A DNA stretch of 23,702 bases from an uncultured Roseateles sp. (GTDB lineage: Bacteria; Pseudomonadota; Gammaproteobacteria; Burkholderiales; Burkholderiaceae): the NCBI GenBank assembly GCA_946480605.1, contig CAMLKW010000043.1, forward strand, positions 1-23,702, given 5' to 3'. Below are positions 5,716 through 19,900 of this stretch, in pieces (the stretch's first letter is position 1; the number at the start of each line of letters is the position of its first letter). A model generated the notes under the pieces. That model saw nothing but the letters and a program-made list of their open reading frames with translations, made no database searches and had not been told where the DNA came from. The translations under genes were made by a program, and so were the position numbers.

Positions 5716-5729
5716 TGGTAGCGCTAGCG
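5716..5729 (+). promoter_or_regulatory. xyl-box-like LacI operator, transporter-proximal site
   Basis: Reads TGGTAGCGCTAGCG, matching 12 of 14 positions of the xyl-box TGGTAGCGCTAACA described for the LacI-family XylR of Xanthomonas and Caulobacter. It has the central TAGCGCTA palindrome with CpG at the centre, as LacI-family sites do. It lies about 26 bases ahead of the ExuT-like gene start (5690), so a bound repressor would block that unit. Its centre is about 142 bp from the second site in the same intergenic region, a spacing that could allow looping. Confidence 0.65.
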
Positions 5730-5857
5730 ATGATGGTCCGGGTAAACCCCTGTCGCGCAGGCGACGTGTCAGGTGTTCCGGACGCGTTGTGGTTCAAGAC
5801 TTGTCTCCGTTGGGGATGGTCGCCGGCCGACCGTCGAATGACAGTTGCCGGACGCAA

Positions 5858-5871
5858 ATGTAGCGCTACCA
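5858..5871 (-). promoter_or_regulatory. xyl-box-like LacI operator, aguA-proximal site
   Basis: Reads TGGTAGCGCTACAT on the minus strand (11 of 14 matches to the xyl-box) and lies inside a wider inverted repeat, CAAATG then CATTTG at 5855-5860 and 5870-5875. It lies about 60 bases ahead of the aguA start. A weak sigma-70-like pair, TTGCCG at 5845-5850 and TACCAT at 5867-5872 (16-base spacer), would place the operator over the -10 region of the aguA promoter; the promoter assignment is tentative. Confidence 0.78.
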
Positions 5872-5930
5872 TTTGGGTTCACGCAAGCCGGGGAAATCGC
5901 GCACGCGGCCGGACACGAACAGGAGACGAG

Positions 5931-8066
5931 ATGAAGTTCACAGGCAAATGGCTGGTGGCAGCGCTGATGGCGATGGCACCCGCCCTGGCATGGGCCGAGG
6001 ACGGCTACGAGCTGTGGCTGCGCTACCGGCCGGTGCAGGGCGCGGCGCTGGCGCAGTTGCAGACGGGCGCCAGGGCCATCGTGCGTGCCGGCGCGGATTC
6101 GCCCACGCTGCAGACGGCCGTCGCCGAACTGAAGCGGGGTGTGGCCGGCATGACTGGACGTGAGCCGGCGCTGACTTCGCGCATCGCGCCCGGCGCGCTG
6201 GTGCTGGCCACGCCGGCGAGCGCGCCCGCCGGGCTCGCGATGCCGTGGGCGGAACTGGGCCCGGAAGGCTATGCGCTGCGCCGGCTCAAGCTGCAGGGCG
6301 CGGACGTCACGGTCATCGCCGCCAACACCGACATCGGCCTGCTGTACGGCAGCTACGCCTGGCTGCGTGCCGCGCAGACCGGTGTCGACCTGGCCCGTCT
6401 GGACCTGCGCTCGGTGCCCAAGGTCCAGCTGCGCATGCTCAACCACTGGGACAACCTGGACCGCCATGTCGAGCGTGGCTATGCCGGCGCGTCCATCTGG
6501 GACTGGTGGAAGCTGCCGGAGATCCTGGACACGCGCTACACCGACTACGCCCGCGCCAATGCGTCGCTGGGCATCAACGGCACGGTGCTGAACAACGTCA
6601 ACGCCAAGGCCGACTCGCTGACCGCGCCCTGGCTGGCCAAGGCCGCGGCGCTGGCCGGCGTGTTCCGGCCCTATGGCATCAAGGTCTACCTGTCGGCGCG
6701 CTTCTCGGCGCCGGTGGAGCTGGGTGGGCTGAAGAAGTCCGACCCGCTGGACCCGGCGGTGCGCGCTTGGTGGAAGGCCAAGGCGGACGAGATCTACAAG
6801 ACCATCCCGGACTTCGGCGGCTTCCTCGTGAAGGCCAACTCCGAGGGCCAGCCCGGCCCGCAGGACTACGGCCGCCACCATGCCGACGGCGCCAACATGC
6901 TGGCCGAGGCGCTGGCGCCGCATGGCGGCGTCGTGCTGTGGCGCGCCTTCGTCTACGCGCCCGAGGCCAAGGACCGCGCGGCCCAGGCCTTCGACGAGTT
7001 CAAGCCGCTGGACGGCAAGTTCGCGTCCAACGTCATCGTGCAGGTGAAGAACGGCGCCATCGACTTCCAGCCGCGCGAGCCTTTCCATCCGCTGTTTGGC
7101 GCCACGCCCAAGACGCCGCTGGCGCTGGAGCTGCAAATCACCAAGGAGTACCTGGGCTTCGCGACGCACCTGGTCTACATGGGCCCGCTGTTCGAGGAGG
7201 TGCTGAAGGCCGACACCGGCCACGGCGGCACGGTGGCGCGCGTGGTGGATGGCAGCCTGGCGAAACACCGGCTGACGGCGATGGCCGGCGTCGCCAACAC
7301 CGGCACCGACCGCAACTGGAGCGGCTCGCAGTTCGACCAGGCCAACTGGTACGCCTACGGCCGCATGGCCTGGGACCCCGACCTTGGCGCTGCCGACGTG
7401 GCCCGCGACTGGGTGGCGCAGACCTTCACGGCCCGGCCTGCGGCGCGCGACGCCATCGTGAGCCTGATGCTGGCCTCACGCGAGGCCGTCGTGGACTACA
7501 TGACGCCGCTGGGTCTGCACCACCTGATGGGCACTGGCCACCACTACGGCCCCGCGCCGTGGGTGGACAACCTGGAGCGCGCCGACTGGAACCCGACCTA
7601 CTTCCACCGCGCGGCCAAGGAAGGCATCGGCTTCGACCGCACCGCCACCGGCAGCAATGCCGTGGCGCAGTACGCGCCGGCTGTGGCCAAGCGCTGGGCC
7701 GACCCGCGCACCACGCCGCCGGAACTGCTGCTGTGGTTCCACCACCTGCCCTGGGACTACGCGATGCCGTCGGGCCGCACGCTGTGGGCCGAGTTGATTG
7801 CCCGCTACGACCGCGGCGTCGCTGCCGTGGCCGGCGTGCGCGCCCGCTGGGCCGCGCTGCAGCCCGACATCGATGCCGCCCGCCACGCCGAGGTGACGGC
7901 CTACCTCGTCCAACAGGAGCGCGAGGCGCGCTGGTGGCGCGACGCCTGCATTGCCTATTTCCAGTCGGTCTCCGGCCTGCCGCTGCCGGCCGGCGTGCGC
8001 CCGCCCGAGCGCAGCCTGGACGAGTACAAACGGGAGCGCTTTCCGTATGCCCCCGGCAAGGGCTGA
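5931..8066 (+). CDS. aguA: Exported GH67 alpha-glucuronidase
   Basis: Cleaves alpha-1,2-linked (4-O-methyl)glucuronate from the non-reducing-end xylose of aldouronic acids. The 711-residue length matches the family. The catalytic residues keep exactly the spacing of Cellvibrio japonicus GlcA67A (E292, D365, E393): Glu305 in ANSEGQPGP, Asp378 in GAIDFQPREP and Glu406 in QITKEYLG. The N-terminus is a signal peptide: basic MKFTGK, a hydrophobic core and a likely cut after AWA (residue 22), so the enzyme should be periplasmic. The ATG at 5931 follows an AGGAG ribosome site; the frame is open much further upstream but only as a shadow of the divergent transporter gene. It heads the right-hand unit and carries an operator in its promoter. 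Identity is very secure. Confidence 0.97.
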   Translation: MKFTGKWLVAALMAMAPALAWAEDGYELWLRYRPVQGAALAQLQTGARAIVRAGADSPTLQTAVAELKRGVAGMTGREPALTSRIAPGALVLATPASAPAGLAMPWAELGPEGYALRRLKLQGADVTVIAANTDIGLLYGSYAWLRAAQTGVDLARLDLRSVPKVQLRMLNHWDNLDRHVERGYAGASIWDWWKLPEILDTRYTDYARANASLGINGTVLNNVNAKADSLTAPWLAKAAALAGVFRPYGIKVYLSARFSAPVELGGLKKSDPLDPAVRAWWKAKADEIYKTIPDFGGFLVKANSEGQPGPQDYGRHHADGANMLAEALAPHGGVVLWRAFVYAPEAKDRAAQAFDEFKPLDGKFASNVIVQVKNGAIDFQPREPFHPLFGATPKTPLALELQITKEYLGFATHLVYMGPLFEEVLKADTGHGGTVARVVDGSLAKHRLTAMAGVANTGTDRNWSGSQFDQANWYAYGRMAWDPDLGAADVARDWVAQTFTARPAARDAIVSLMLASREAVVDYMTPLGLHHLMGTGHHYGPAPWVDNLERADWNPTYFHRAAKEGIGFDRTATGSNAVAQYAPAVAKRWADPRTTPPELLLWFHHLPWDYAMPSGRTLWAELIARYDRGVAAVAGVRARWAALQPDIDAARHAEVTAYLVQQEREARWWRDACIAYFQSVSGLPLPAGVRPPERSLDEYKRERFPYAPGKG

Positions 8067-8103
8067 GAGCCGATTCAAGGGATGATGGAAAATCTTGGCT
8101 CTC
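8065..8103 (+). other. Imperfect inverted repeat between aguA and the LacI gene
   Basis: GAGAGC (8065-8070) pairs with GCTCTC (8098-8103), and inside it CAAG (8076-8079) pairs with CTTG (8094-8097), leaving a five-base bulge and a 14-base loop. It begins within the aguA stop codon. There is no T-tract, so it is a poor intrinsic terminator; it could stabilise the mRNA end or damp read-through into the regulator gene. Its role is unknown. Confidence 0.35.
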
Positions 8104-8131
8104 CAAGAACAACGAACTCTCGAGGTGCAGA

Positions 8132-9208
8132 TTGAAGCCAAACGCGCGCCAGGGGCGTAGCACCAAGGTCGCCACCATCGCCGATGTGGCCAGCCTGGCC
8201 GGCGTGTCGCCCATGACGGTGTCGCGCGTGGTCAACGGCGAGCAGAACGTCCGGCCCGGCACGCGGGAGAAGGTGCAGGCCGCGATCGCGGCGCTGAACT
8301 ACCTGCCCAACCAGGCCGCGCGCCGGCTGGCCGGTTCGGAGCCCATCCGCATCGGCATGCTCTACATCGACCCCAGCGCCGGCTACCTCAACGAGTTCCT
8401 GATCGGCCTGCTGAACAAGAGCAGCCTCAGCCACGTGCAGCTCATCGTGCAGCGCTGCGACGCCGCACGCGACGGCGAGGAGAAGCCGGTGGCCGAGATG
8501 ATCGCCAACGGCATCGACGGCCTCATCCTGCCGCCGCCCTTCTGCGACTCGCAGCCGCTGCTCAAGCTGGTCGCCGAGACCGACACGCCGGCCGTGGCCG
8601 TGTCCGCGGGCCAGCCGCCCGAGGACGTCTGCGCCGTGGGCATCGACGATTTCCAGGCCGCCTACGAGATGACGCGCCACCTGCTGGGCCTGGGCCATCA
8701 CCGCCTGGGCTTCATCATCGGCGACCCCTACCAGCGCAGCAGCTCGCGCCGCCTCGCCGGCTTCCACGCCGCGATGACCGACGCGGGCCTGAACATCGCC
8801 GAGGAAGAGGTCGTCGCGCAGGGCATGTTCACCTACCGCTCGGGGCTGGACGCGGCCGAGTTCCTGCTGTCGCAGGAGCAGCGCCCCACGGCCATCTTCG
8901 CCAGCAACGACGACATGGCGGCCGCCACCGTGGCCATCGCCCACCGCCTGGGCCTGGACGTGCCCAGCGACCTGACCGTCGTGGGCTTCGACGACGCGCC
9001 TCTGGCCACCACGATCTGGCCCGAACTCACCACCGTGCGTCAGCCCATCATGGAGATGGCCGGCGCCGCGGTGGACCTGCTGGTGCGCCACATCCGCGCG
9101 CGCCGCTCCGGCGAGCCCTTGCCCTGCGAGCATGTGCTGAAGGACTTCGAGCTGATCCGCCGTCAGTCCGACGCCGCACCCCGTCTGCGCCCGCCCCTGC
9201 GGCGCTGA
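8132..9208 (+). CDS. LacI-family transcriptional regulator (probable XylR-type local repressor)
   Basis: A 358-residue LacI/GalR regulator: DNA-binding helix-turn-helix at 13-35 (TIADVASLAGVSPMTVSRVVNG), hinge helix at about 56-69 (NYLPNQAARRLAGS), then a periplasmic-binding-protein-like effector domain with the usual GYPSD-like replacement SNDDMAAA and VVGFDDAPLA near the C-terminus. No ATG or GTG lies in frame ahead of the helix-turn-helix; the TTG at 8132 gives a normal N-terminus (MKPNARQGRSTKVATI) and has GAGG about six bases upstream, so TTG is chosen. It lies 65 bases after aguA and is probably transcribed with it. Xyl-box-like sites occur in front of the neighbouring transcription units, which makes it the best candidate to bind them. 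The inducer could be xylose, a xylo-oligosaccharide or an aldouronate; the sequence does not decide. Confidence 0.92.
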   Translation: MKPNARQGRSTKVATIADVASLAGVSPMTVSRVVNGEQNVRPGTREKVQAAIAALNYLPNQAARRLAGSEPIRIGMLYIDPSAGYLNEFLIGLLNKSSLSHVQLIVQRCDAARDGEEKPVAEMIANGIDGLILPPPFCDSQPLLKLVAETDTPAVAVSAGQPPEDVCAVGIDDFQAAYEMTRHLLGLGHHRLGFIIGDPYQRSSSRRLAGFHAAMTDAGLNIAEEEVVAQGMFTYRSGLDAAEFLLSQEQRPTAIFASNDDMAAATVAIAHRLGLDVPSDLTVVGFDDAPLATTIWPELTTVRQPIMEMAGAAVDLLVRHIRARRSGEPLPCEHVLKDFELIRRQSDAAPRLRPPLRR

Positions 9209-9245
9209 ACCCACTTCAAGGCCCAATGGCGGGCCGGAGAAACTC

Positions 9246-10082
9246 ATGGAACAACTGACCGGCCTGCGCTTCAAGCGCCTGCTGCTGACCGGCGCCGCCG
9301 GTGCCCTGGGCCGCATGCTGCGCCCGCGCATGAAGCGCTACTGCGAGACGCTGCGCGTGTCCGATCTCGTGGCGATGGACCCCGCCGGCGACGGCGAGGA
9401 AGTCGTCATCGCGCCGCTGGAAGACGAGGCCGCGATGTACGACCTGCTGGACGGCGTGGACGCCGTGCTGCATTTCGGCGGCGTGTCCGTCGAGAAACCC
9501 TTCAGCACCGTGCTGCCGGCCAACATCGTCGGCGCCTACAACCTCTACGAAGCCGCGCGCCGGCGCGGCACCAAGCGCATCGTCTTCGCCAGTTCCAACC
9601 ACGTGACCGGCTTCTACGGCCAGGGCGAGACCATTCCCGCCCATGTCGTGCCGCGCCCGGACAGCTACTACGGCCTGTCCAAGGCCTTTGGCGAGAACCT
9701 GGCGCAGTTCTACTTCGACCGTCACGGCCTGGAGACGGTGACCATCCGCATCGGCTCCTGCCTGCCCGAGCCGCAGGACCGCCGCCACCTGTCGAGCTGG
9801 ATCAGCCACGACGACATGGAGCGGCTGCTGGTCGCCGCCTTGAGCGCACCGGTGGTGGGCCACAGCATCGTCTACGGCGCCAGCGACAACCGCACGACCT
9901 GGTGGGACAACAGCCAGGGCAAGCATGTCGGCTACCGCCCGCAGGACAGCTCCGAACCCTGGCGTGCCGCCGTCGAGGCCAGGCAGCCGCACATCGACCC
10001 GACGCGACCCGAGGCACGCTACCAGGGCGGTGCCTTCGTCGTGCTGGGCCCCTTCGACTTCGCCGGCCAGGGCCCCAAGTGA
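9246..10082 (+). CDS. udh: Uronate dehydrogenase (NAD-dependent, SDR fold)
   Basis: Oxidises D-glucuronate or D-galacturonate at C1 to the aldaro-lactone with NAD+, the first step of the oxidative uronate route. The 278-residue protein is an extended short-chain dehydrogenase with the Rossmann motif TGAAGALG (15-22), the HFGG segment typical of uronate dehydrogenases (about 76-79), catalytic serine in ASSNH (115-119), and the Tyr142-x3-Lys146 pair in YYGLSKAFGE. Length and motifs match the Pseudomonas and Agrobacterium enzymes. The ATG follows a GGAG ribosome site. Its stop overlaps the GTG start of the lactonase by four bases, which matches the chemistry because the lactone is the next enzyme's substrate. 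Other NAD-dependent epimerases are excluded by length and the HFGG/ASSNH motifs. Confidence 0.93.
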   Translation: MEQLTGLRFKRLLLTGAAGALGRMLRPRMKRYCETLRVSDLVAMDPAGDGEEVVIAPLEDEAAMYDLLDGVDAVLHFGGVSVEKPFSTVLPANIVGAYNLYEAARRRGTKRIVFASSNHVTGFYGQGETIPAHVVPRPDSYYGLSKAFGENLAQFYFDRHGLETVTIRIGSCLPEPQDRRHLSSWISHDDMERLLVAALSAPVVGHSIVYGASDNRTTWWDNSQGKHVGYRPQDSSEPWRAAVEARQPHIDPTRPEARYQGGAFVVLGPFDFAGQGPK

Positions 10083-11050
10083 GCGGCCCCCGCATCCCCT
10101 TCCAGCCGGCCGCGCGCCTGCCCGACGCGGCCTTCGAGATCCTCGCCCCCGAGGGCCGCGAGCTGCGGCTGTTCTCGGCCTGCGTGGAGCAGCTGGCCAC
10201 CGGCCTGCAATGGGCCGAGGGCCCGGTGTGGTTCGGCGACGGCCGCTACCTGCTGCTGTCCGACATCCCCAACGACCGCATCCTGCGCTGGGACGACTGC
10301 AGCGGCGAAGTAGGCGTGTTCCGCCAGCCGGCCGGCAACGCCAACGGCCATGCGCGCGACGCGCAGGGCCGGCTGGTCAGCTGCGAGCACCTGGGGCGGC
10401 GCATCACGCGTACCGAGTTCGATGGCCGCGTCACCGTGCTGGCCGACCGCTACGACGGCAAGCCGCTGAACTCGCCCAACGACATCACCTGCGGGCCGGA
10501 CGGCGCAATCTGGTTCACCGACCCCGAGTTCGGCATCGCCAGCGACTGGGAAGGCCTGCGTGCCACGCCCGAGCAGCCGCATGGCGTCTATCGCATCGAC
10601 CCGGTCAGCGGCGAGTTGCAGCGCGTCATCGACGACCTCGCCGGCCCCAACGGCCTGGCCTTCACGCCCGACGGCCAGCGCCTGCTGGTGGTGGAGAGCC
10701 GCGCCCAGCCGCACCGGCTGATCTGGTCCTACACCGTCGACGGTGCGACGGTCAGCGACAAGCGCTTGCTGATCGATGCCGAAGGCCCCGGCGCCTTCGA
10801 CGGCATCGCGCTGGACACGCAGGGCCGCATCTGGTGCGGCTTCGGCGGCGGCGGCCAGCCGGGCGTGGACCCGGCGCTGCTGGATGGCGTGCGCGTCTAC
10901 TCGCCGGAGGGCCAGGCGCTGGCCCACATCCACCTGCCCGAGCGCTGCGCCAACCTGTGCTTCGGCGGTGCCAAGGGCAACCGCCTCTTCATGGCCAGCA
11001 GCCATTCGCTGTACGCGCTGTACGTGAACGCGCGCGGGTTCGTGCGCTGA
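10079..11050 (+). CDS. SMP-30/gluconolactonase-family aldarolactonase
   Basis: Predicted to hydrolyse the glucaro- or galactarolactone made by Udh to the open aldarate. The 323-residue protein is an SMP-30-type six-bladed propeller; the divalent-metal ligands can be placed at Glu47 (WAEGPVW), Asn191 (GPNGLAF) and Asp241 (GAFDGIAL), with Asn134 (NSPND) nearby. The Asn-to-Asp distance of 50 equals that in SMP-30 (N154/D204). The start is a GTG at 10079 inside the Udh stop (GTGA overlap); the frame stays open further upstream, but only over udh. The adjacent udh and downstream galM support a sugar-lactone role. Such enzymes beside udh have been described as uronate-pathway lactonases (UxuL-type); assignment to that exact subgroup is inference, and xylonolactone or gluconolactone remain possible. 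Confidence 0.88.
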   Translation: MSGPRIPFQPAARLPDAAFEILAPEGRELRLFSACVEQLATGLQWAEGPVWFGDGRYLLLSDIPNDRILRWDDCSGEVGVFRQPAGNANGHARDAQGRLVSCEHLGRRITRTEFDGRVTVLADRYDGKPLNSPNDITCGPDGAIWFTDPEFGIASDWEGLRATPEQPHGVYRIDPVSGELQRVIDDLAGPNGLAFTPDGQRLLVVESRAQPHRLIWSYTVDGATVSDKRLLIDAEGPGAFDGIALDTQGRIWCGFGGGGQPGVDPALLDGVRVYSPEGQALAHIHLPERCANLCFGGAKGNRLFMASSHSLYALYVNARGFVR

Positions 11051-12084
11051 TGGCGGCCGGCATCACCGCACGCGACTACGGTCGCCTGCCGGACGGCCGC
11101 GCCGTCCGCGAATACCGCCTCGACAACGGCCGCGGCCTGGTGCTGACGGCGCTGGACTGGGGCGGCATCGTCACCGGCCTGTGGCTGCCGGGCCTGGCCG
11201 ACAGCGTCGTGCTGGGGCTGCGCGACCTGGACGCCTATCTGAGCGGTGCCGGCTCCTACCTGGGCGTCATCGCCGGCCGCTACGCCAACCGCATTGCCGG
11301 CGGCAGCTTCGAACTGGACGGCCAGCGGCACACGCTGCCCGCCAACAACGGCGCCCACTGCCTGCACGGCGGCCCCGAGGGCTTCCACAGCCGGCTGTGG
11401 ACGGCCGAGGCGCAGCCGGTGGCGGCCGATGGCGGCGTCACGCTGCGGCTGGCGCTGCACAGCCCGCATGGCGACCAGGGCTTTCCGGGTGCGCTGGACA
11501 TGGCCGTGCGCTACACGCTGGGCACCGACATGAGCTGGCGCGTGGACTACGAGGCGCACTGCGACCGGCCCACGGTCGTCAACCCGACCTCGCACGCCTA
11601 CTTCAACCTGGCCGGCGCCGAGTCGGGCTCGGCGCTGGCGCAGCAACTCACGCTGCATGCCGGCCGCTACACCGAGGCCGATGCGACCGGCATCCCCATC
11701 GCGCACCGCCCCGTCGACGGCACGCCCTTCGACTTCCGCCGCGAGCGTGCCGTGGGCCTGGACGTGGGCTACGACCACAACTGGCTGCTGGACCAACCGA
11801 TGGATGGCGCGCTGCATGCCGCCGCGCGCCTGCGCGACCCGGCGTCGGGCCGCTGCATGGACATCCAGACCACCGAGCCGGCGATCCAGTTCTACGCCGG
11901 CACCTGGATGGACGGCTCGCTGGCCAGCCCGGGCGGGCGGCCCTATCGGCGTGGTGCCGGCCTGTGCCTGGAGACTCAGCACAGCCCCGACTCGCCCAAC
12001 CGGCCCGTAGGTCCCGACTGGCCCAGCACGGTGCTGCAGCCGGGCGAAGTGTTCCGCTCGACGACGCTGCACCGGTTCAGCTGA
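11050..12084 (+). CDS. galM: Aldose 1-epimerase (mutarotase)
   Basis: Interconverts alpha and beta anomers of aldoses. The 344-residue protein has the expected active-site residues: His106 in CLHGGPEGFH, His182 in NPTSHAYFNL and Glu308 in CLETQHSPDSPN, matching H96, H170 and E304 of the Lactococcus enzyme. No signal peptide is evident. The ATG shares a base with the lactonase stop (TGATG), so translation is coupled. In this locus it could speed the anomeric exchange of xylose released by GH43 before XylA acts, or of glucuronate before Udh, which oxidises one anomer. The sequence does not distinguish these. Confidence 0.94.
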   Translation: MAAGITARDYGRLPDGRAVREYRLDNGRGLVLTALDWGGIVTGLWLPGLADSVVLGLRDLDAYLSGAGSYLGVIAGRYANRIAGGSFELDGQRHTLPANNGAHCLHGGPEGFHSRLWTAEAQPVAADGGVTLRLALHSPHGDQGFPGALDMAVRYTLGTDMSWRVDYEAHCDRPTVVNPTSHAYFNLAGAESGSALAQQLTLHAGRYTEADATGIPIAHRPVDGTPFDFRRERAVGLDVGYDHNWLLDQPMDGALHAAARLRDPASGRCMDIQTTEPAIQFYAGTWMDGSLASPGGRPYRRGAGLCLETQHSPDSPNRPVGPDWPSTVLQPGEVFRSTTLHRFS

Positions 12085-12088
12085 AGCC

Positions 12089-12631: not shown

Positions 12632-13029
12632 GGGCGACTACCCTGCGAGCCGGCGTGCTCATCCGCGCCGACTGGATGGCTGGAGCGGTCGCCGGCACGC
12701 TGGTGCTTGCCCTGCATGGCTGGCTGGCCAGGCTGTACGCCTTGCCCCAAGCCTTGCTGCTGCTGATCGGCCTGGCCAACCTGGGCTACGCCTGCTTGTC
12801 CTTCACGCTCTGGCGGCTCGGCCGGGGTGGCCGGGTTCCGCTGCTGCGGCCGATGGCCGCCGCGAACATGGCCTGGGCGCTGCTGTGCCTGGCCTGGGCC
12901 GCCCGCTGGGCCGGCGAGGCCAGCGTGTTTGGCATGGCCCAGTTGGTGGGCGAGGCCGTCTTTGTCGGGGTGCTGGGCGGGCTGGAGTGGCGCGCCGGCT
13001 CGGCTCAGAGGATGAAGTACTCGGGATAG
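12628..13029 (+). CDS. Small four-helix integral membrane protein, unknown
   Basis: A 133-residue very hydrophobic protein with four predicted membrane segments at about 16-36, 40-62, 74-93 and 100-121, separated by short arginine-rich loops (for example LWRLGRGGR), and a short polar tail. The GTG at 12628 sits in the stop of the TPR-like gene (GTGA overlap) and is preferred over an in-frame ATG-like start upstream, which would lie inside that gene. No family, catalytic motif or transport signature is recognised. It is the last gene of the aguA-side unit, and its 3' end runs 25 bases into the convergent GntR gene. Because it is coding-like and coupled, I consider it real but unassigned. Confidence 0.6.
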   Translation: MRATTLRAGVLIRADWMAGAVAGTLVLALHGWLARLYALPQALLLLIGLANLGYACLSFTLWRLGRGGRVPLLRPMAAANMAWALLCLAWAARWAGEASVFGMAQLVGEAVFVGVLGGLEWRAGSAQRMKYSG

Positions 13030-13682
13030 CGCTTCTGGATCTCGTCCACCGACGCCAGCGTGCCGGACAGGTGGTCGCGCACGGCATGCTGCGCCGCCTC
13101 GACGTCGCGGGACTCGATGGCTTCCAGGATGGCCTGGTGCGCGCGCAGGATGGACTCGGTCTTGCCGACGAAGGGCGAGTGCAACAGCCGCAGACGGTCC
13201 ACGTGGCCCGACATGCGCACGACCGTCGACCACAGCCGTGGCAGGCCGGCCGCCACGTACATGAGCCGGTGAAACTCCTTGTCGGCGGCGATGAAGCCGA
13301 GGAAGTCCTTCTGCGCTGCCAGGTCCGCCTGGCGGGCCAGTTGGGTGCGCAGATCGGCGATGACGCTGTCCTCATGCGAGATGGCCAGCTGGCGGGCGAT
13401 CTCGATCTCGATGGAGCGACGCAGGAAGTGCGCCTCGCGGGCGGCCGGCACGTCGATGCGGCTGACCTGCGTCGTGTACTGCGCCCGTATGATGACCAGC
13501 CCCTCTTCGCTGAGCCGGATGAGCGCGTCGCGCACGGGCGTCTGGCTGATGCCGAAGCGCTGTGCCAGCTCGGCGCGGTCCAGCGCGATGCCGGGCGCCA
13601 GTTCCATGGAGATGATCGCGGCCCGCAGCGCCTCGACGACCTGGGGTGCCACGTGGCGGGTGTGATCTAGCGTGTAGTTCAT
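13005..13682 (-). CDS. GntR-family regulator, FadR/FCD subfamily
   Basis: A 225-residue regulator: winged helix at about 12-75 (APQVVEALRAAI, ISQTPVRDALIRLSEEGLV) and a FCD ligand-binding domain at about 85-205. Candidate metal ligands Asp134, His138, His182 and His204 have the spacing seen in metal-dependent FCD proteins, whose ligands are often small organic acids such as aldonates, uronates or keto-acids. ATG at 13682 is chosen; a GTG at 13709 would add nine residues but would leave almost no leader, because a -10-like TAAAAT at 13730-13735 and a palindrome at 13716-13729 lie just upstream. The same palindrome occurs in the divergent FAH/receptor promoter, so self-control plus control of that promoter is inferred. 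The 3' end overlaps the convergent membrane-protein gene. Confidence 0.9.
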   Translation of the reverse strand: MNYTLDHTRHVAPQVVEALRAAIISMELAPGIALDRAELAQRFGISQTPVRDALIRLSEEGLVIIRAQYTTQVSRIDVPAAREAHFLRRSIEIEIARQLAISHEDSVIADLRTQLARQADLAAQKDFLGFIAADKEFHRLMYVAAGLPRLWSTVVRMSGHVDRLRLLHSPFVGKTESILRAHQAILEAIESRDVEAAQHAVRDHLSGTLASVDEIQKRYPEYFIL

Positions 13683-13715
13683 CGCGGTTCTGAGGTCGGA
13701 TCGGGCCACTGATGC

Positions 13716-13729
13716 CCTAATACATTAGG
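13716..13729. promoter_or_regulatory. GntR-type operator in the GntR gene's own promoter
   Basis: Reads CCTAATACATTAGG, an inverted repeat with 6-bp arms around a 2-base centre. Its inner 12 bases are identical to a site at 15205-15216. On the minus strand it follows a -10-like TAAAAT (13730-13735), so it would cover the start of transcription, the usual arrangement for autorepression. No convincing -35 box was found. Confidence 0.7.
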
Positions 13730-13840
13730 ATTTTATGAGCCACCCCGGGTGGCTTCATGTGGGTGTTTCCCGGCGCCGGCAGGGGTGGGGCGGGCGGCGC
13801 GCGTGCCCGGTGCCGGCGCTGCGCCGCCCGGCGGGCCGGA

Positions 13841-13875
13841 CAAAAAAACGGCGGCTCCGCAGGGCGGGCCGCCGC
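13841..13875 (-). terminator. Rho-independent terminator downstream of the FAH-family gene
   Basis: On the minus strand a GC stem (13868-13874 with 13849-13855, 7 bp, loop 12) is followed by seven T residues (A-tract at 13842-13848 on the plus strand). It lies about 43 bases beyond the FAH-family stop at 13918 and ahead of the GntR gene, so it separates the two. Confidence 0.8.
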
Positions 13876-13880
13876 AAGTG

Positions 13881-13907
13881 AAAGGACGCCCACCAGCCCG
13901 GGCGTCC
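13881..13907 (-). terminator. Second hairpin just after the FAH-family gene
   Basis: GGACGCCC (13884-13891) pairs with GGGCGTCC (13900-13907), an 8-bp perfect stem with an 8-base loop, followed on the minus strand by only TTT. It is a weak terminator or an mRNA-end stabiliser sitting directly before the stronger T-tract terminator. Confidence 0.5.
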
Positions 13908-13917
13908 GACCAGAGAT

Positions 13918-15102
13918 TCAGAGTTGCAGGCGTTGCCGGCGCAGGTGCTTGAACAGCTCGCCCAGTCCGTAAGTCCAGGGCGGGATGGCGTCGCTGCGCT
14001 GCACCGTGTTGACGAGGGCGCCGAGCGCGGGGCTGGCGATGGTGACGACGTCGCCCAGCCGATGCGTGAAGCCGGCGCCGGGCGCGCCTCGGTCCTGGAT
14101 GGGCGAGAACATGGTGCCCAGGAACAGCATGAAACCGTCGGGGTATTGGTGGTGCGGGCCGCAGGCGTGGCGCACCAGTTCCAGTGGGTCGCGGCTGATC
14201 TCCTGCATGCGGCTGACGCCTTCCAGCACGAAGCCGTCGTCGGCGCCGGCGATGCGCAGGCTGACGGTGGCGGCGCGCACGGTGTCCAGCGTGAACTGGC
14301 CGTCGAAAAGGCGGATGAAGGGGCCGATGGCGCAGGAGCCGTTGTTGTCCTTGGCCTTGCCCAGCAGCAGCGCGCTACGGCCCTCGATGTCGCGCAGGTT
14401 GACGTCATTGCCCAGCGTCGCGCCGACGACCTCGGCGCGGCCGTTCACCGCCAGCACGACCTCGGGCTCGGGGTTGTTCCACTGCGAGTCCGGGTGCAGG
14501 CCCACGGCGTCGCCGAAGCCCACGGCCGACATCGGCTGGGCTTTCGTGAAGACCTCGGCGTCCGGGCCCAAACCGACTTCCAGATAGGGCGACCAGGCGC
14601 CGCGGGCGACGAACTCGGCCTTGAGCCGCTGCGCCGTCGCCGAGCCGGGGCGGATGCTGGCGAGGTCGGTGCCCAGCGTGGCGGTCAGCGACCGGCGCAG
14701 TTCGTGGGCGCGTGCGGCGTCGCCGCCAGCCTGCGCCTCGATGACGCGCTCCAGCAGGCTCACCGCAAAGGTCACGCCGCAGGCCTTGATGGCCTGCAGG
14801 TCGCAGGGGGCCAGCGGGCGGGGCAGGGCGGGGTTGGGGGATGTGGCCAACGCATTGGCCAGCACGGCCTGCACCGACCCCAGCGGCCGGCCGGGTGCGT
14901 GGCGGGCCAGCTCCACCACATCGTGGCGGTCCAGCAGTTCTGCCAGCGTGGCGGCCTGGGCGGACAGGTCAACGAGTTCGCCACCGCGCACCGTCACCAG
15001 CGCCGGGCCCGCGGCCTCAGGGTGCCATACGCGCCCGACCAGGACAGCGCTGGCCGAATCGGTCGGCAAAGCGGTCTGAGTTGAAGCGTGGCGGTCTTGC
15101 AT
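13918..15102 (-). CDS. FAH-family 2-keto-3-deoxy-sugar-acid dehydratase/hydrolase (XylX-like candidate)
   Basis: A 394-residue protein of the fumarylacetoacetate hydrolase family, in the long form that includes 2-keto-3-deoxy-pentonate dehydratases (Caulobacter XylX type) making alpha-ketoglutarate semialdehyde. The divalent-metal site is visible as Glu212 and Glu214 in NNPEPEVVLAVN and Asp233 in LGNDVNLRDIEG; the following LLLGKAKDNNGSCAIGPF block is typical of this subgroup. The N-terminal third is less conserved. The ATG at 15102 is the only start fitting this length. It is divergent from the TonB receptor, with a xyl-box-like operator about 40 bases and a GntR-type palindrome about 100 bases ahead of it. 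No xylose dehydrogenase or xylonate dehydratase lies in the window, so the exact substrate (2-keto-3-deoxy-xylonate, -arabinonate or a uronate-derived keto-acid) is open. Confidence 0.82.
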   Translation of the reverse strand: MQDRHASTQTALPTDSASAVLVGRVWHPEAAGPALVTVRGGELVDLSAQAATLAELLDRHDVVELARHAPGRPLGSVQAVLANALATSPNPALPRPLAPCDLQAIKACGVTFAVSLLERVIEAQAGGDAARAHELRRSLTATLGTDLASIRPGSATAQRLKAEFVARGAWSPYLEVGLGPDAEVFTKAQPMSAVGFGDAVGLHPDSQWNNPEPEVVLAVNGRAEVVGATLGNDVNLRDIEGRSALLLGKAKDNNGSCAIGPFIRLFDGQFTLDTVRAATVSLRIAGADDGFVLEGVSRMQEISRDPLELVRHACGPHHQYPDGFMLFLGTMFSPIQDRGAPGAGFTHRLGDVVTIASPALGALVNTVQRSDAIPPWTYGLGELFKHLRRQRLQL

Positions 15103-15141
15103 CGTTGAAGCTCATCGGAGCCCGTGGCTGATGTCGGCCAT

Positions 15142-15155
15142 TGTGAGCGCTACCG
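15142..15155 (-). promoter_or_regulatory. xyl-box-like LacI operator ahead of the FAH-family gene
   Basis: Reads CGGTAGCGCTCACA on the minus strand, 12 of 14 matches to the xyl-box. It lies 40 bases ahead of the FAH-family start codon, in position to repress it, and is about 121 bp (centre to centre) from the next site over the receptor promoter. Confidence 0.68.
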
Positions 15156-15203
15156 ATGTGCTTGCCAATCGCGGTTAACACGGGCGCCATGGTTCTGATA
15201 TCC

Positions 15204-15217
15204 ACTAATACATTAGT
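15204..15217. promoter_or_regulatory. GntR-type operator in the FAH/TonB-receptor divergent promoter
   Basis: Reads ACTAATACATTAGT, an inverted repeat whose inner 12 bases (CTAATACATTAG) are identical to those of the site ahead of the GntR gene at 13716-13729. It lies just upstream of the receptor's predicted -35 box and between the two xyl-box-like sites, so it could serve both divergent genes. Confidence 0.7.
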
Positions 15218-15228
15218 ACACACCCTCG

Positions 15229-15257
15229 TTGACGGTGTGAAAGGTGGGGCGTAAATT
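15229..15257 (+). promoter_or_regulatory. Predicted sigma-70 promoter of the TonB-dependent receptor gene
   Basis: TTGACG at 15229-15234 and TAAATT at 15252-15257, with a 17-base spacer, match 5 of 6 and 4 of 6 consensus bases. Transcription would start near 15264, inside the xyl-box-like operator at 15263-15276, leaving a leader of about 80 bases before the ATG at 15344. Confidence 0.65.
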
Positions 15258-15262
15258 GCAAA

Positions 15263-15276
15263 TGTGCGCGCTACCA
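15263..15276 (-). promoter_or_regulatory. xyl-box-like LacI operator over the receptor transcription start
   Basis: Reads TGGTAGCGCGCACA on the minus strand (12 of 14 xyl-box matches). The flanks extend the symmetry, with AAATG at 15260-15264 and CCATTT at 15274-15279. It follows the predicted -10 box by five bases, the classic place for a repressor site. Confidence 0.78.
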
Positions 15277-15304
15277 TTTCTATTTGATGTCGCGTTAACG
15301 GCGC

Positions 15305-15316
15305 CCGAAATTTCGG
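15305..15316. repeat. Perfect 12-bp palindrome in the receptor leader
   Basis: CCGAAATTTCGG is perfectly self-complementary and lies between the predicted transcription start and the ribosome site of the receptor gene. It has no loop, so it is a protein-binding candidate rather than an RNA hairpin. Only this copy was noticed. Confidence 0.4.
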
Positions 15317-15343
15317 CATGCAGAATCAAAGAGGAGACGACAG

Positions 15344-18300
15344 ATGAGCAAGACCCCCTCGCGGCCCGAGCGCCGCACGCGCCTGGACCGCCAACTGGCC
15401 CTGGGCACCACGCTGCTGGCCGGGCTCATCGCCCAGGCCTATGCGCAGACCCCGGCCCAGTCGCAGCAGGCCTCCACGCAGCAGTTGGACACGGTGGTCG
15501 TGACCGGCATCCGCGCGTCGCTGGAAAGCTCGGCCAACGCCAAGAAGAACGCCGTGGGCTTCCTCGACGCGATCACGGCCGAGGACATGGGCAAATTCCC
15601 GGACAGCAACATCGCCGAGTCCATCGCCCGCATCCCCGGCGTCACGATGACGCGCGAGATCACCGGCGAGGGCCTGCAGATCCAGATCCGCGGCCTGGGC
15701 ACCAACTTCACCCGCATCCTGCTGAACGGTGCGCCGGTCGCGTCGGCCTCCACCGGCCGCACCGACACCGGCAGTGCCAACCGCGAAGTCGACATGGACT
15801 TCCTGCCCGGCGAACTGTTCAGCCGCGTCAGCGTCATCAAGAGCCCGACCGCCTCGCTGCTGGAAGGCGGCGCAGCCGGCATCGTCGACATGCGCAGCGC
15901 ACGCCCCTTCGACAAGAAGGGCTTCCGCACCGCCTTCACGCTGACGGGCACCAAGAATCAGAACGCCGAGGACTGGGGCAACCGCGGCTCGGCGCTGGTC
16001 AGCAACACCTGGAACAACGTGTTCGGCGTGCTGGCCGGCGTGGCCTGGTCGACCAACAAGGTCAAAACCACCGGCTTCGAGTCCATCGGCTGGACCAATG
16101 CCAACCTGTCGGCCACGCAAGGCGCCAGCCTGGGCACGGCGCGCAACAGCACCGGTGGCGGCAACTGGACCATTCCCGGCACCGTGCCGGCCGGCGCGGG
16201 CAACGGCCTGAACACCGGCGACGCGATCAACGAGGCCTTCCTGCTGGCCAAGAACCCCGGCCTCAGCATCCAGCAGATCGACAACGCCATCCTCCCGCGC
16301 CTGGGCCGCGCCATGGTGGCCGAGGGCAGCCGGGACCGCAAGAACGCCATCCTGTCGGTGGAAGCGCGTCCGAACAGCTCGGTGAAGTTCTTTGTGGACG
16401 CCATCTACGGCCACAAGAAGAACCAGTTCGAGCGCGTGGACATGAACTGGGTGGGCCGCAACGGCTCGTCCATCCCCATCAACATGACGGTGGACAAGAG
16501 CGACTGCGCTGCCGGCTGCACGGTCACCAAGGGCACGTTTGCGAACTCGCAGTACTTCCTGGAGTACCGGCCCTACACGGAGGAGACCAAGTTCCATAGC
16601 GTCAACCCCGGCATGAGCCTCAGGCTGACCGACGCGATCAGCCTGGATGTGCAGGCCAACAAGACCAAGAGCGACTTCCAGCGCCAGTCGCCGACGGTGC
16701 TGTTCCAGACCGTGCTGGGCTCGGGCCTGACGACGGAGTACGACAACACCAGCGGCGTGCCCAAGCTGAGGGCCATTGGCGCCAACGGTGCCACCGACCT
16801 GCTGAACACGCCCAGCGCCTTCGGCTGGAACGGCGGCCGCCTGAATCAGCAGGACGAATTGCGCTCGGTCCGCACCTCCGGCCTGCGCGGCAACTTCGAC
16901 ATCGACGCCGGCATCTTCGACGTCAAGTTCGGCGGCTCCCATGACAGCGTCTCGCGCCGCATCAACACGCTGGACAACAGCGGCTACTGGGAAAACATCG
17001 CCTGCCGGCGCAATGTCAACGTGTTCCTGCCGGGCCCCAACACCGTCAACCCCGGCCCCTGCAACGGCGCCGGCGCGGCCGGCGCGGCGGCCGGCACCTA
17101 CCCGGGCTATGGCACGGGCTTCACGGCCGGCGCCAATCCGGCGTCGCTGCAGTTCCAGGGCTCGACCATCCCGAATGCGTCCGTGCCCAGCTATCTGCGG
17201 CCCACGGCCAACGGCTTCGTCACGCTGGACTGGGCCCGCTTCGCGAAGGACTCCGGCTACCAGATGGCCCGCGACGCGGCGACCTTCGGCACCGCCAACT
17301 CCAACAACAACGTGGCACCCGGGTTCTTCCAGGAAAAGGTCGATGCCATCTTCACCGAGGTCAACGGCGAGACCACGCTGTTCGGCAACCAGCTGCGCTA
17401 CAACGCTGGCGCCCGCTATGCGACGACGGAGCAGACCTTCGCCACGCTGACCACCCCGGCCGACCCGCGCAACGCCGCGCAGAACCTGGCCGACGGCGGC
17501 CGCTATCCGGCCCGCGTCGTCGAGAGCCTGACGACCACGACCTACAGCAACTTCCTGCCGTCCGGCAGCCTGGCCTACAACCTGCGCAAGGACGTGCTGG
17601 CCCGCGCGTCCATGTCCAAGACCATCACGCGCGCCGACCCCACACAGCTGCGCGCGCTGTCGCTGAGCTTCACCGACCCGGCGGCCCAGAACGGCCAGCT
17701 GACCAACCCCGACCTCAAGCCCTACGAGTCCAAGAACACCGATCTGGGCATCGAGTGGTACACGGGCCGTGAAGGCTATGTCGCGCTGGCCTGGTTCAAG
17801 AAAGGCATCCAGGGCTTCACGGCCAACCGCACGCTGAACGTGAGCTTCGCGGACCTGAACACCTATGGCGTCAACTGGACCCAGGGCGGCCTGACCGACA
17901 CGCAGAAGACCGGCCTTTACACGCGCGCCGGCCTGCCGGTGCCCGCCGACCTGGCCACGGCACCCACGGGCGCCGCGCTGGCGGCGATCAATGCGCTGGG
18001 CGTCACGCTGACGCAGACGCAGAACACTGCCGACGAGCTGCAGATCAAGGGCCTGGAGTTCACGGTGCAGCAGCCGCTGGAGATCGTGTCGTCCTACCTG
18101 AAGGGCTTTGGCGTCAGTGCCAACTACACCAAGGTCAAACAGTCCGGCGCCAACGTGGCCACCGGCGTGCCGCCCTACACCTACAACATGGCCATGTACT
18201 ACGAAGGCCGGTTCGGCGGTTTCCGCCTGACCAAGACCTTCACCAAGGGTTCGCAGTCCACCGGCAAGGGCCAGAACGGCATCACGGAAGCGGCGTTCTT

Positions 18301-18517
18301 CGGGCTGGACTACGCGCAGGTGGACTTCACCTCGCGTCTGAACGTCGGCGAGATCCTGGGCAGCGTCTTCGGTGTCAAGCGCGACCTGCAGGCCACGTTC
18401 GACATCTTCAACGTGGCCCGGGCGTCGCAGCGCACGAACTTCCAGTTCGCCAATGCGCCCTACGCGATCTACGAGCCGGGCCGCACCTATCAGGTCGGTC
18501 TGCGCGCGAGCTTCTGA
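15344..18517 (+). CDS. TonB-dependent outer-membrane receptor (probable xylan-oligosaccharide uptake)
   Basis: A 1057-residue energy-coupled outer-membrane receptor of the large Xanthomonas/Caulobacter carbohydrate type. In order: a basic N-terminus and hydrophobic signal segment with a cut near AYA-Q (about residue 34), a TonB-box-like LDTVVVTGIRAS (48-59), the plug domain (DAITAEDMGKFPDSNIAESIARIPGV, about 75-100, and IQIRGLGTNFTRILLNG), then a long 22-strand-type barrel ending in the aromatic residue of RASF, the outer-membrane assembly signal. The ATG at 15344 follows GAGGAG. Its substrate is inferred from the shared regulation and neighbours: probably acidic or neutral xylo-oligosaccharides too big for porins. 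It carries its own promoter with two regulator sites and ends in a strong terminator. No SusD-like partner is present, as expected for Proteobacteria. Confidence 0.95.
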   Translation: MSKTPSRPERRTRLDRQLALGTTLLAGLIAQAYAQTPAQSQQASTQQLDTVVVTGIRASLESSANAKKNAVGFLDAITAEDMGKFPDSNIAESIARIPGVTMTREITGEGLQIQIRGLGTNFTRILLNGAPVASASTGRTDTGSANREVDMDFLPGELFSRVSVIKSPTASLLEGGAAGIVDMRSARPFDKKGFRTAFTLTGTKNQNAEDWGNRGSALVSNTWNNVFGVLAGVAWSTNKVKTTGFESIGWTNANLSATQGASLGTARNSTGGGNWTIPGTVPAGAGNGLNTGDAINEAFLLAKNPGLSIQQIDNAILPRLGRAMVAEGSRDRKNAILSVEARPNSSVKFFVDAIYGHKKNQFERVDMNWVGRNGSSIPINMTVDKSDCAAGCTVTKGTFANSQYFLEYRPYTEETKFHSVNPGMSLRLTDAISLDVQANKTKSDFQRQSPTVLFQTVLGSGLTTEYDNTSGVPKLRAIGANGATDLLNTPSAFGWNGGRLNQQDELRSVRTSGLRGNFDIDAGIFDVKFGGSHDSVSRRINTLDNSGYWENIACRRNVNVFLPGPNTVNPGPCNGAGAAGAAAGTYPGYGTGFTAGANPASLQFQGSTIPNASVPSYLRPTANGFVTLDWARFAKDSGYQMARDAATFGTANSNNNVAPGFFQEKVDAIFTEVNGETTLFGNQLRYNAGARYATTEQTFATLTTPADPRNAAQNLADGGRYPARVVESLTTTTYSNFLPSGSLAYNLRKDVLARASMSKTITRADPTQLRALSLSFTDPAAQNGQLTNPDLKPYESKNTDLGIEWYTGREGYVALAWFKKGIQGFTANRTLNVSFADLNTYGVNWTQGGLTDTQKTGLYTRAGLPVPADLATAPTGAALAAINALGVTLTQTQNTADELQIKGLEFTVQQPLEIVSSYLKGFGVSANYTKVKQSGANVATGVPPYTYNMAMYYEGRFGGFRLTKTFTKGSQSTGKGQNGITEAAFFGLDYAQVDFTSRLNVGEILGSVFGVKRDLQATFDIFNVARASQRTNFQFANAPYAIYEPGRTYQVGLRASF

Positions 18518-18535
18518 GGCCTTCAGCGCAATGAC

Positions 18536-18564
18536 AAGGGGCTCCCGCGGGAGCCCCTTTTTTT
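18536..18564 (+). terminator. Rho-independent terminator of the TonB-receptor gene
   Basis: GGGGCTCC (18538-18545) pairs with GGAGCCCC (18550-18557) around a short CGCG-type loop, and seven T residues follow (18558-18564). It sits 20 bases after the receptor stop in the convergent gap before the esterase; on the minus strand the T-tract is poor, so it serves mainly the receptor. Confidence 0.9.
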
Positions 18565-18574
18565 CGCGTGGCCT

Positions 18575-19858
18575 TCAGCGCTTCGGGCAGCGGCGTTGCA
18601 GCAGCTCCAGCGGGAAGGCGTCGGCCATCGCCTGATAGCCGGCCATGGACGGATGCAGGCCGTCGTTGTCCAGTTCCTTGCGCAGGTGCGACGGCCGCGC
18701 CGGGTCGCGGGCCAGCGCGTCGAAGTCAACGACAGCATCAAAGCCGCCTTCGCGGCGTATCCAGTCGTTCAGCGCCTGGCGGTCGGCCTCGTTCTCCGGG
18801 CCCGGCTGGTAGTAGCCGCTGCCGCCGTAGGGCATGACAGTGCCGACGAACAGGCATACGCCGCGCGTGCCGGCCTGGGTCTTCAGCGTCGTCAGGCCCG
18901 CCTTCAGCTCGGCCAGCAGCGCGGCGCGCGATTCGGGCGTGGTCTGGCGCTGCCGGTGGCTGCCGCCCAGGTCGTTCACGCCGGCCAGCAGCACGGCGTG
19001 CGTCGCGCCGCTGCGCGCCAGCGCATCGCGGTCGAAGCGCTCCAGCACGCGCGGCCCCAGGCCGTCGCGCAACAGCCGGTTGCCGCCGATACCGGTGTTG
19101 ACCACGGCCACTGCCTGGCTCTGCGCGACGAGGCGGCGCGACAGCGCGTCGGTCCAGCGCAGGTAGCTGCCGGCCTGCACGCCGTAGCCATCGGTGATGG
19201 AGTCGCCGATGGCCACCAGCACCGGCTGCGGCGCTGCGCCGCTGACGTCCACGGCCGCCAGATGCCACCAGCCGTCGCGCGGCGTGGCGGCGCTCCAGTC
19301 CGCCTTGTCCACCTGGTTGCCGGCCAGTGCCCAGCTCTGGATGCGCGAGCCCGGATGCACGGTCGCCCGTGCCGGCGACTGCGCCAGGTGCATCTGCACG
19401 GCCAGGTCGGCCGTGCGTGGCACGGCCAGCGGTACCGGGTCGCTCCAGGCTTCGGCACCGGGCGCCAGGCGCAGCGCGCGCTGGCCGCCAAAACTCAGCG
19501 GCCGCAGACTGCCTTCCTGCAACTGCGGGCGGCCGGATTCGGTGCCCGCGGCCACCAGCGCCACGCTGGCTGCGTCCAGCTTCAGCTCCTGCTGCCCGAA
19601 CAGGTTGCTGACACGCACCCGCACGGCCGTGCCGGCCACCGTCGTGCGCACCACCTGACGCAGGCTCACGTCGTTCAGCGGCGCCTGCCAGGGCGCGGGC
19701 GGCGGCGTGCTGCCGGGGGCGGCGGGCTGCTGGTCCAGCTGCGCGCTGCCCCAGGCCGCCAGCCACTGTGGCGGCGCCGTGTCGCGAGCGGGCGATGCGC
19801 AGCCGGCCAGCAGCAACGCGGCGAGAAGCAGGGTGGGGCGGCGGAGCAGGACGGGCAT
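18575..19858 (-). CDS. SGNH/GDSL esterase lipoprotein (XynE-like, probable carbohydrate acyl-esterase)
   Basis: A 427-residue SGNH hydrolase. The N-terminus is a lipoprotein signal with lipobox LAGC and Cys20, so it should be membrane-anchored, facing the periplasm or the surface. An N-terminal beta domain (about 30-205) with LNDVSLRQVVRTTVAG and RVSNLFG precedes the catalytic domain: block I AIGDSITDGYG with nucleophile Ser220, block II GIGGNRLL (Gly259), block III GVND (Asn295) and block V DGLHPS with Asp399 and His402. This layout matches the XynE-like subgroup first noted in a rumen Prevotella xylanase cluster. An operator-like site sits at 19887-19900, about 30 bases before the ATG. Deacetylation of xylan oligomers is the likely role; pectin or arylester substrates are possible. 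Confidence 0.9.
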   Translation of the reverse strand: MPVLLRRPTLLLAALLLAGCASPARDTAPPQWLAAWGSAQLDQQPAAPGSTPPPAPWQAPLNDVSLRQVVRTTVAGTAVRVRVSNLFGQQELKLDAASVALVAAGTESGRPQLQEGSLRPLSFGGQRALRLAPGAEAWSDPVPLAVPRTADLAVQMHLAQSPARATVHPGSRIQSWALAGNQVDKADWSAATPRDGWWHLAAVDVSGAAPQPVLVAIGDSITDGYGVQAGSYLRWTDALSRRLVAQSQAVAVVNTGIGGNRLLRDGLGPRVLERFDRDALARSGATHAVLLAGVNDLGGSHRQRQTTPESRAALLAELKAGLTTLKTQAGTRGVCLFVGTVMPYGGSGYYQPGPENEADRQALNDWIRREGGFDAVVDFDALARDPARPSHLRKELDNDGLHPSMAGYQAMADAFPLELLQRRCPKR

Positions 19859-19886
19859 GGGGGTGTTGGGAATGATGGACCGAAAA

Positions 19887-19900
19887 TGATATCGCTACCA
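19887..19900 (-). promoter_or_regulatory. xyl-box-like LacI operator ahead of the esterase gene
   Basis: Reads TGGTAGCGATATCA on the minus strand, 12 of 14 xyl-box matches. The left half TGGTAGCG is intact. A -10-like TATCAT (19886-19891) overlaps its downstream edge; no good -35 was found. It ties the esterase to the same regulon although the gene lies beyond the convergent receptor. Confidence 0.7.

Follow-up and report, generated by a model that had tools for sequence, protein, structure and literature searches.

Five xyl-box-like sites and their predicted XylR-kind LacI regulator in a putative glucuronoxylan locus of an uncultured Roseateles

We analyzed a stretch of 23,702 nucleotides (contig CAMLKW010000043.1, G+C 69%) from an uncultured Roseateles sp., which we call the window. 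Five xyl-box-like sites in it look like operators of one LacI-type regulator, and their predicted regulator is most likely the local protein encoded at 8132..9208, which appears to be of the xyl-box (XylR) kind. We think it very probable that the locus is a glucuronoxylan-fragment utilization cluster controlled by this protein as a repressor, and it looks like a XylR/xyl-box regulon for such fragments. The sites, their conservation, the clade of the regulator and its recognition helix were read from sequence; from these we infer binding, repression, the effector, the operon structure and the role of a second, GntR-type regulator.

Xyl-box-like sites and their distribution

The xyl-box is given as TGGTAGCGCTAACA in passages of PMC10380989 and PMC7748154. 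On the better strand, our five sites match it at 12, 11, 12, 12 and 12 of 14 positions, in line with the 11–12 counted in the initial annotation of this stretch. We scored them with a matrix of 20 positions trained on 150 sites from outside the Roseateles group. Box 1 (5716..5729; 14.1 bits, rank 5 in the window) stands before the ExuT-like unit, box 2 (5858..5871; 19.3 bits, rank 3) with the 14 bases ATGTAGCGCTACCA before aguA, box 3 (15142..15155; 16.6 bits, rank 4) before the FAH (xylX-like) gene, box 4 (15263..15276; 20.6 bits, rank 2) before the receptor gene, and box 5 (19887..19900; 27.0 bits, rank 1) before the SGNH esterase gene. The distances from box edge to start codon are 26, 60, 40, 68 and 29 bp, where the FAH offset uses the ATG at 15102 (our own gene caller picked a later start, 14997). 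The initial annotation had named these same genes and had called all five sites intergenic, which agrees with the position of the box centers relative to the called genes.

All five sites are present, but the core that they were said to share, TGGTAGCG, is exact in only four of them. Box 3 has CGGTAGCG instead, and a further exact copy lies on the minus strand at 10017–10024, inside the uronate-dehydrogenase-like gene. The count of TGGTAGCG in the window is 5, against 0.47 expected, and none of 100 shuffles reached 5. Allowing up to 3 mismatches to TGGTAGCGCTANCA gives 13 strand-wise matches where 4.4 are expected, a count reached by 0 of 100 shuffles. The matrix puts the five boxes in places 1–5, the sixth place being a genic one of 5.3 bits. 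Windows simulated at first order (30 in all) have on average 0.07 places of at least 14.1 bits and never more than 1, compared with 5 here. Seven other Roseateles-group loci have 16 places of at least this score in 16,586 bp of intergenic sequence and 1 in 126,507 bp of genic sequence.

Apart from the five, the matrix scan of the window found no intergenic site of at least 5 bits. The FBPase and PepN genes are thus without a box, and the OmpA-like gene has none of its own and shares only that of the esterase. The proposal that the whole 20-kb locus is one regulon was therefore too wide.

We fetched 80 related loci by the LacI protein (54–94% identical) and scanned them together with the window for the self-complementary consensus TGGTAGCGCTACCA at up to 3 mismatches, calling genes with our own codon-usage script. 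The motif is not equally common inside genes, with 43 matches in 1,427,259 genic bases versus 168 in 199,388 intergenic bases. In all, 211 genes have a site within 350 bp, including GH3 (34), FAH (33), AguA (30), the regulator itself (26), receptors (14), GH43 (8) and SGNH esterases (5); neighbor names come from one representative each, and because divergent neighbors were both counted, the counts for single genes are upper limits. Other genes with a box upstream in the related loci encode ILVD/EDD and aldehyde dehydrogenase proteins (sphingomonads) and an SDR (L014, L079).

Judged by the LacI gene, the window is closest to seven Roseateles-group loci (L001–L006 and L041; 90–94% identity). As stand-ins for the genome of the window we used four whole genomes (G001–G004), reached through L001 (Pelomonas sp. 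Root1444), L004 (Roseateles saccharophilus), L006 (R. puraquae) and L041 (Pelomonas sp. Root1237). When the aguA promoter is aligned across six loci, AAATGTAGCGCTACCATTT is kept, with C as its last base in L003, and the flanks mostly drift. The alignment of the receptor promoter across four loci gives the same picture for AAATGTGCGCGCTACCATTT, which is identical in L003, L005 and G004. All seven relatives have the 14-mer of the aguA box, though an AguA next to it was not detected in L002 or L004. The box 1 14-mer is unchanged in L001 and L003, where it lies 143 bp from the aguA box (142 bp in the window); this pair of boxes was not found in L005, L006 or L041. The box 3 14-mer recurs in L003, again in front of FAH, and in G004, there in front of an ILVD/EDD gene. 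SGNH homologues (64–65%) in G002, G003 and G004 are preceded by boxes of 22.0–29.3 bits.

We made a few further observations on these promoters. The left half of the aguA box is one base short of the symmetric AAATGGTAGCGCTACCATTT, both in the window and in all seven relatives. A gene with a ROK-family match (L002:8356-9555) replaces the ExuT-like unit divergently beside an aguA-type box in L002, L004, L006 and L041; the L002 protein was scanned and the other three were assigned by cluster. L001:14300-14401 has two xyl-box-like sites of 13.4 and 18.6 bits, 88 bp apart, that resemble the FAH and receptor boxes. They follow an aldose epimerase gene, no FAH or receptor match was found beside them, and nearby there is a short stretch with 81% similarity to window 13836-13916. 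These sites are possibly the scar of a lost FAH-receptor pair.

The LacI-type regulator and its clade

The protein encoded at 8132–9208 has LacI DNA-binding and sugar-sensor domains (PF00356, PF13377 and PF00532; LacI, Peripla_BP_3). As the initial annotation held, none of the other window genes scanned encodes a LacI-type protein, although the GntR/FCD regulator at 13005–13709 went unmentioned there. We built a tree with a quick method and rooted it at the midpoint for drawing. The regulator falls in a clade of 103 rows, with a Shimodaira-Hasegawa-like approximate likelihood ratio test (SH-aLRT) support of 99, that consists of the window group, Oxalobacteraceae, sphingomonads and a Caulobacter clade and excludes all 15 other LacI rows of Roseateles/Pelomonas genomes in the tree.

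The recognition helix GVSPMTVSRV is found in the window regulator and in 17 of 17 Caulobacter-clade homologues (L168–L184). We took the Caulobacter-genus regulators as XylR from their linkage to an FAH gene and a box. Fourteen of the 17 have FAH on the fetched stretch, all 14 with a box at up to 2 mismatches; two of the other three have a box before an FAH gene placed elsewhere, and one was not traced. Named proteins of C. henricii and C. hibisci share 90% identity with the regulator of L173. The genus around G005 has a homologue at E 1e-60 or better in 27 of 31 genomes, with 20 loci listed. In G005 itself, an FAH-adjacent regulator of a closer clade has sites at L200:141-154 and 1450-1463 with a CCGG center, not GCGC.

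Among the 80 regulator loci, AguA is present in 41, FAH in 49 and either in 63. A family sample at 1e-110 has the regulator in 3 of 150 genomes, among them the center G001 and G004, which was already known; in the sampled family it is therefore apparently an accessory trait. Another sample, 369 genomes from the class of G010, gave 4 matches, center included. The initial annotation suggested that the xyl-box system extends to this lineage; the lineage is not special in this, as the same regulator kind with sites is also found in Oxalobacteraceae, sphingomonads and Caulobacterales.

One alternative keeps the regulator in the XylR clade but has its effector changed to aldouronate or glucuronate, so that this would be a glucuronate regulon and not a xylose regulon. 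The genes for AguA, the uronate-dehydrogenase-like protein and the lactonase are in the unit of the regulator, as this alternative would have it. The xylX-linked Caulobacter clade is also sister to, and outside, the group that holds the window regulator (SH-aLRT 93), and the sensor domain is 51% identical (146/287) to that of the Caulobacter regulator L173. However, several sensor motifs are common to both proteins, and the FAH, ILVD/EDD, aldehyde dehydrogenase and SDR genes behind the boxes of related loci are gene kinds of oxidative xylose catabolism. We regard a changed effector as a tentative possibility to be taken seriously, and apart from the effector it would fit our best explanation. 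Solved LacI-family structures do not help to name one, since even the nearest, CcpA, PurR and similar, are too distant.

Another alternative is that the boxes are real LacI-family operators bound by another LacI paralogue elsewhere in the genome, alone or in competition with the local protein. The four Roseateles/Pelomonas genomes offer candidates, with 9–14 LacI-type matches each (45 in all), and in them related boxes also precede other receptors. Against this, such sites accompany the kin of the window regulator throughout the related loci, the homologue ranking next in the four genomes has 43–45% identity, and 40 of the 41 other LacI matches are without the Pro-Met pair of the helix. The forty-first is a paralogue at G002:C11:2783-2920, 33% identical, with the helix EVSPMTASRA. 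All 45 matches were read, and because of this paralogue the Pro-Met pair cannot be called unique to the regulator within a genome, and the regulator need not be the only protein that recognizes the boxes. We still consider it unlikely that another paralogue accounts for the boxes.

The G002 paralogue is one of several points that weigh against our best explanation. In three Caulobacter-genus genomes, G005, G020 and G024, a closer homologue (59–60%) stands beside FAH with no box at up to 2 mismatches; the G005 sites score 17.4–18.6 bits and have a changed center. The helix is not constant either: in 82 rows from L001–L080 it reads GVSPMTVSRV in 49, has Ala for Pro in 13 and another residue in 7, and the pattern expression did not read the remaining 13. 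We found no consensus promoter at aguA/ExuT or at the esterase. The matrix scores are partly circular, as the training sites were chosen within 3 mismatches of a consensus close to the sites of the window. Lastly, TGNTANCGCTACCA at up to 1 mismatch occurs 15, 11, 15 and 11 times in the four relatives' genomes, and its backwards control is commoner (70, 77, 51 and 67).

Since these raw counts are below the control, it is location and not count that distinguishes the motif, and we claim no genome-wide over-representation of it. With TGNNNNCGCTACCATTT at up to 1 mismatch there were 18 matches versus 9 for the control. Of 25 fetched TGNTANCGCTACCA matches, 21 are intergenic, and the ten genes scanned beside these are three receptors, a GH3, an SGNH esterase, two aldo/keto reductases, a GntR/FCD, a GH2 and a beta-helix gene. 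Other LacI proteins may be the regulators at some of these sites. The raw counts could be taken to mean that the five matches are a chance resemblance in a GC-rich genome, as could the departure of each box from the published one at 2–3 of 14 positions. The shuffles and simulations, the intergenic enrichment and the conservation across loci all speak against chance, and on these grounds we rejected it as extremely improbable.

The receptor promoter and a second regulator

By sequence match and alignment, the receptor has a sigma-70-like promoter, TTGACG-17-TAAATT, at 15229..15257 on the plus strand. Its -10 hexamer TAAATT is kept in 4 of 4 aligned loci and TTGACG in 3 of 4 (TTGACT in G004), and box 4 lies directly downstream of the -10 hexamer. 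Box 3 overlaps a promoter-like match on the minus strand, on the FAH side. Both the receptor and the FAH gene have a consensus promoter beside the box.

The receptor promoter has two boxes in the window (15142-15276) and in three other loci: L003:16058-16194, L005:14942-15077 and, from G004, L194:10070-10205. In the window, L003, L005 and G004 the second box is 121, 123, 122 and 122 bp upstream of the receptor box, and it is weaker, at 16.6, under 8, 11.6 and 11.5 bits. Only in the window is the FAH gene the divergent neighbor. The upstream box is kept though the divergent neighbors differ, so the 15142 box may be an auxiliary operator of the receptor besides serving the FAH gene. DNA looping between the two receptor boxes is possible.

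Between the two xyl-boxes, just upstream of the receptor -35 hexamer, there is a different palindrome, CTAATACATTAG (15205..15216), and a second copy stands before the GntR gene (13717..13728). Two copies in the window compare with 0.05 expected with one mismatch allowed, and 0 of 100 shuffles reached 2. In 193 loci (many of them overlapping) plus the window, CTAATNNATTAG at up to 1 mismatch occurs only in the window, L003 and L188 (G004), and by tblastn these same three are the ones with a homologue of this GntR. In L005 the receptor promoter and box are present, and neither the palindrome nor the GntR gene was found there. L003 and G004 have divergent GntR and receptor genes and a single palindrome in the region between the two. 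In the window, where the FAH gene separates them, each of the two promoters has its own copy. The exact palindrome is found at one place in the four whole genomes, between the receptor and the GntR gene of G004. The evidence is the position of the palindrome and not its count, because its backwards control is about as frequent, with one forward and one reverse match each in G001 and in G004.

The GntR/FCD regulator seems to have its own operator, CTAATACATTAG, before itself and the receptor, and it probably shares predicted control of the outer-membrane receptor gene. This second palindrome in the receptor and GntR promoters further weakens the idea of the whole locus as one regulon. We are evenly divided on whether the receptor is under two-input control, with XylR reporting xylan pentose and GntR/FCD reporting a sugar acid or uronate through CTAATACATTAG. 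XylR would then act on the box after the -10 hexamer, perhaps helped by looping to the box 121–123 bp upstream.

Genes of the locus, proposed mechanism and known systems

Domains were called with Pfam and NCBIfam profiles. On the minus strand are a GPH-family sugar:cation symporter (908..2464; TIGR00792 over cut-off), a GH43 beta-xylosidase with a GH43_C2 domain (2509..4158) and an MFS transporter of hexuronate/galactonate type, the ExuT-like protein (4161..5690; PF07690, with the best NCBIfam model, TIGR00893, below cut-off). Divergent from these, on the plus strand, are aguA for a GH67 alpha-glucuronidase (5931..8066; Pfam GH67 N, M and C), the LacI-family regulator as second gene of the predicted aguA unit (8132..9208; assigned to the XylR kind by Pfam domains, tree and recognition helix), an NAD-dependent dehydrogenase of epimerase fold (9246..10082; PF01370), probably a uronate dehydrogenase, an SMP-30/gluconolactonase-like lactonase (10079..11050; PF08450) and an aldose 1-epimerase (11050..12084; PF01263), and also a small protein with a weak TPR match. 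Then come the GntR/FCD regulator (13005..13709, minus; PF00392 and PF07729) and the FAH-fold gene (13918..15102, minus), the TonB-dependent receptor of Xanthomonas/Caulobacter type (15344..18517, plus; TIGR01782, 505.9 bits versus a cut-off of 310), the SGNH/GDSL esterase (18575..19858, minus; PF13472), probably a xylan-related deacetylase, and the OmpA-like, FBPase and PepN genes. The partial gene at 2-862 on the window edge has a weak, below-cut-off match to a xylose-isomerase-like TIM barrel (PF01261).

The FAH gene is without any Pfam match at 1e-5. Its product matches PDB 9kkt (E 3.5e-120) and the 2-keto-3-deoxy-D-arabinonate dehydratase 2q18 (E 1.4e-18), and it is 54–57% identical to FAH genes in five Caulobacter-genus genomes. 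From these PDB matches and homologues we take it as a likely 2-keto-3-deoxy sugar acid dehydratase like xylX.

Under the mechanism that we propose, the repressor would occupy the xyl-boxes when there is no inducer. At the receptor, where the box comes right after the -10 hexamer, the bound protein would lie over the transcription start. The boxes of the other four genes are 26–60 bp before the start codon, consistent with the same mode of repression, and the upstream box of the FAH/receptor pair may contribute as an auxiliary operator. The inducer would be xylose, a short xylo-oligosaccharide or an aldouronate. On release of the repressor, the receptor would be switched on for uptake and the FAH dehydratase for sugar-acid catabolism, together with the transporters, the esterase, GH43 and AguA; the last three would remove acetyl, xylose and glucuronate. 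The regulator would limit its own synthesis because its gene follows aguA within one unit. GntR/FCD, acting through CTAATACATTAG, is probably a further input to the receptor gene as well as to its own.

The XylR/xylX promoter system of Caulobacter was reportedly described by Stephens et al. in 2007, a paper cited in PMC10380989. The window resembles it in having a LacI-type regulator, with a helix identical to those of the FAH-linked regulators of Caulobacter-genus genomes, and the same kind of box before an FAH-fold gene. Unlike in Caulobacter, the window regulator is in a sister clade (52–55% identical) and in the aguA unit, the FAH gene is beside the receptor, and we saw no complete oxidative xylose gene set in the window. 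A second comparison is with the Xanthomonas XylR/xyl-box xylan loci of the carbohydrate utilization with TonB-dependent transporter (CUT) type, said to have been reported by Dejean et al. in 2013, to which PMC7748154, PMC10380989 and PMC13282271 refer. Here the likeness is the TGGTAGCGCTAACA match at 11–12 of 14 positions and a receptor and transporter in one carbohydrate locus; the difference is that no xylose isomerase gene was identified in the window. The presumed tie to Xanthomonas XylR comes from the published box sequence only.

The partial text of PMC1790865 describes LacI control of a TonB-receptor sucrose locus by SuxR in Xanthomonas. We liken it to the window by gene content only, as a LacI repressor, a receptor, an inner-membrane transporter and a hydrolase share one locus; unlike the window locus, it is a sucrose system. 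LacI regulators of glucuronate and galacturonate use (ExuR, KdgR, UxaR and UxuR), with xylose among the effectors, are treated in sections of PMC4052901, and those sections give no xyl-box regulon for this lineage. None of the papers listed in our searches of an open-licence library names a XylR/xyl-box regulon in Roseateles.

The xyl-box, in print from Caulobacter and Xanthomonas, is tied by this analysis to a regulator clade in the Roseateles group, Massilia, Duganella, sphingomonads and Caulobacterales, and the matrix can be used to predict xylan regulons in such genomes. The most interesting part of the locus is the receptor promoter, with its two xyl-boxes and a probable GntR operator. 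Since it combines the xyl-boxes with the likely operator of a second regulator, the interplay of two regulators is directly testable there. If the two-input control is true, the bacterium would reach full uptake of glucuronoxylan fragments only when backbone sugar and side-chain acid are both present.

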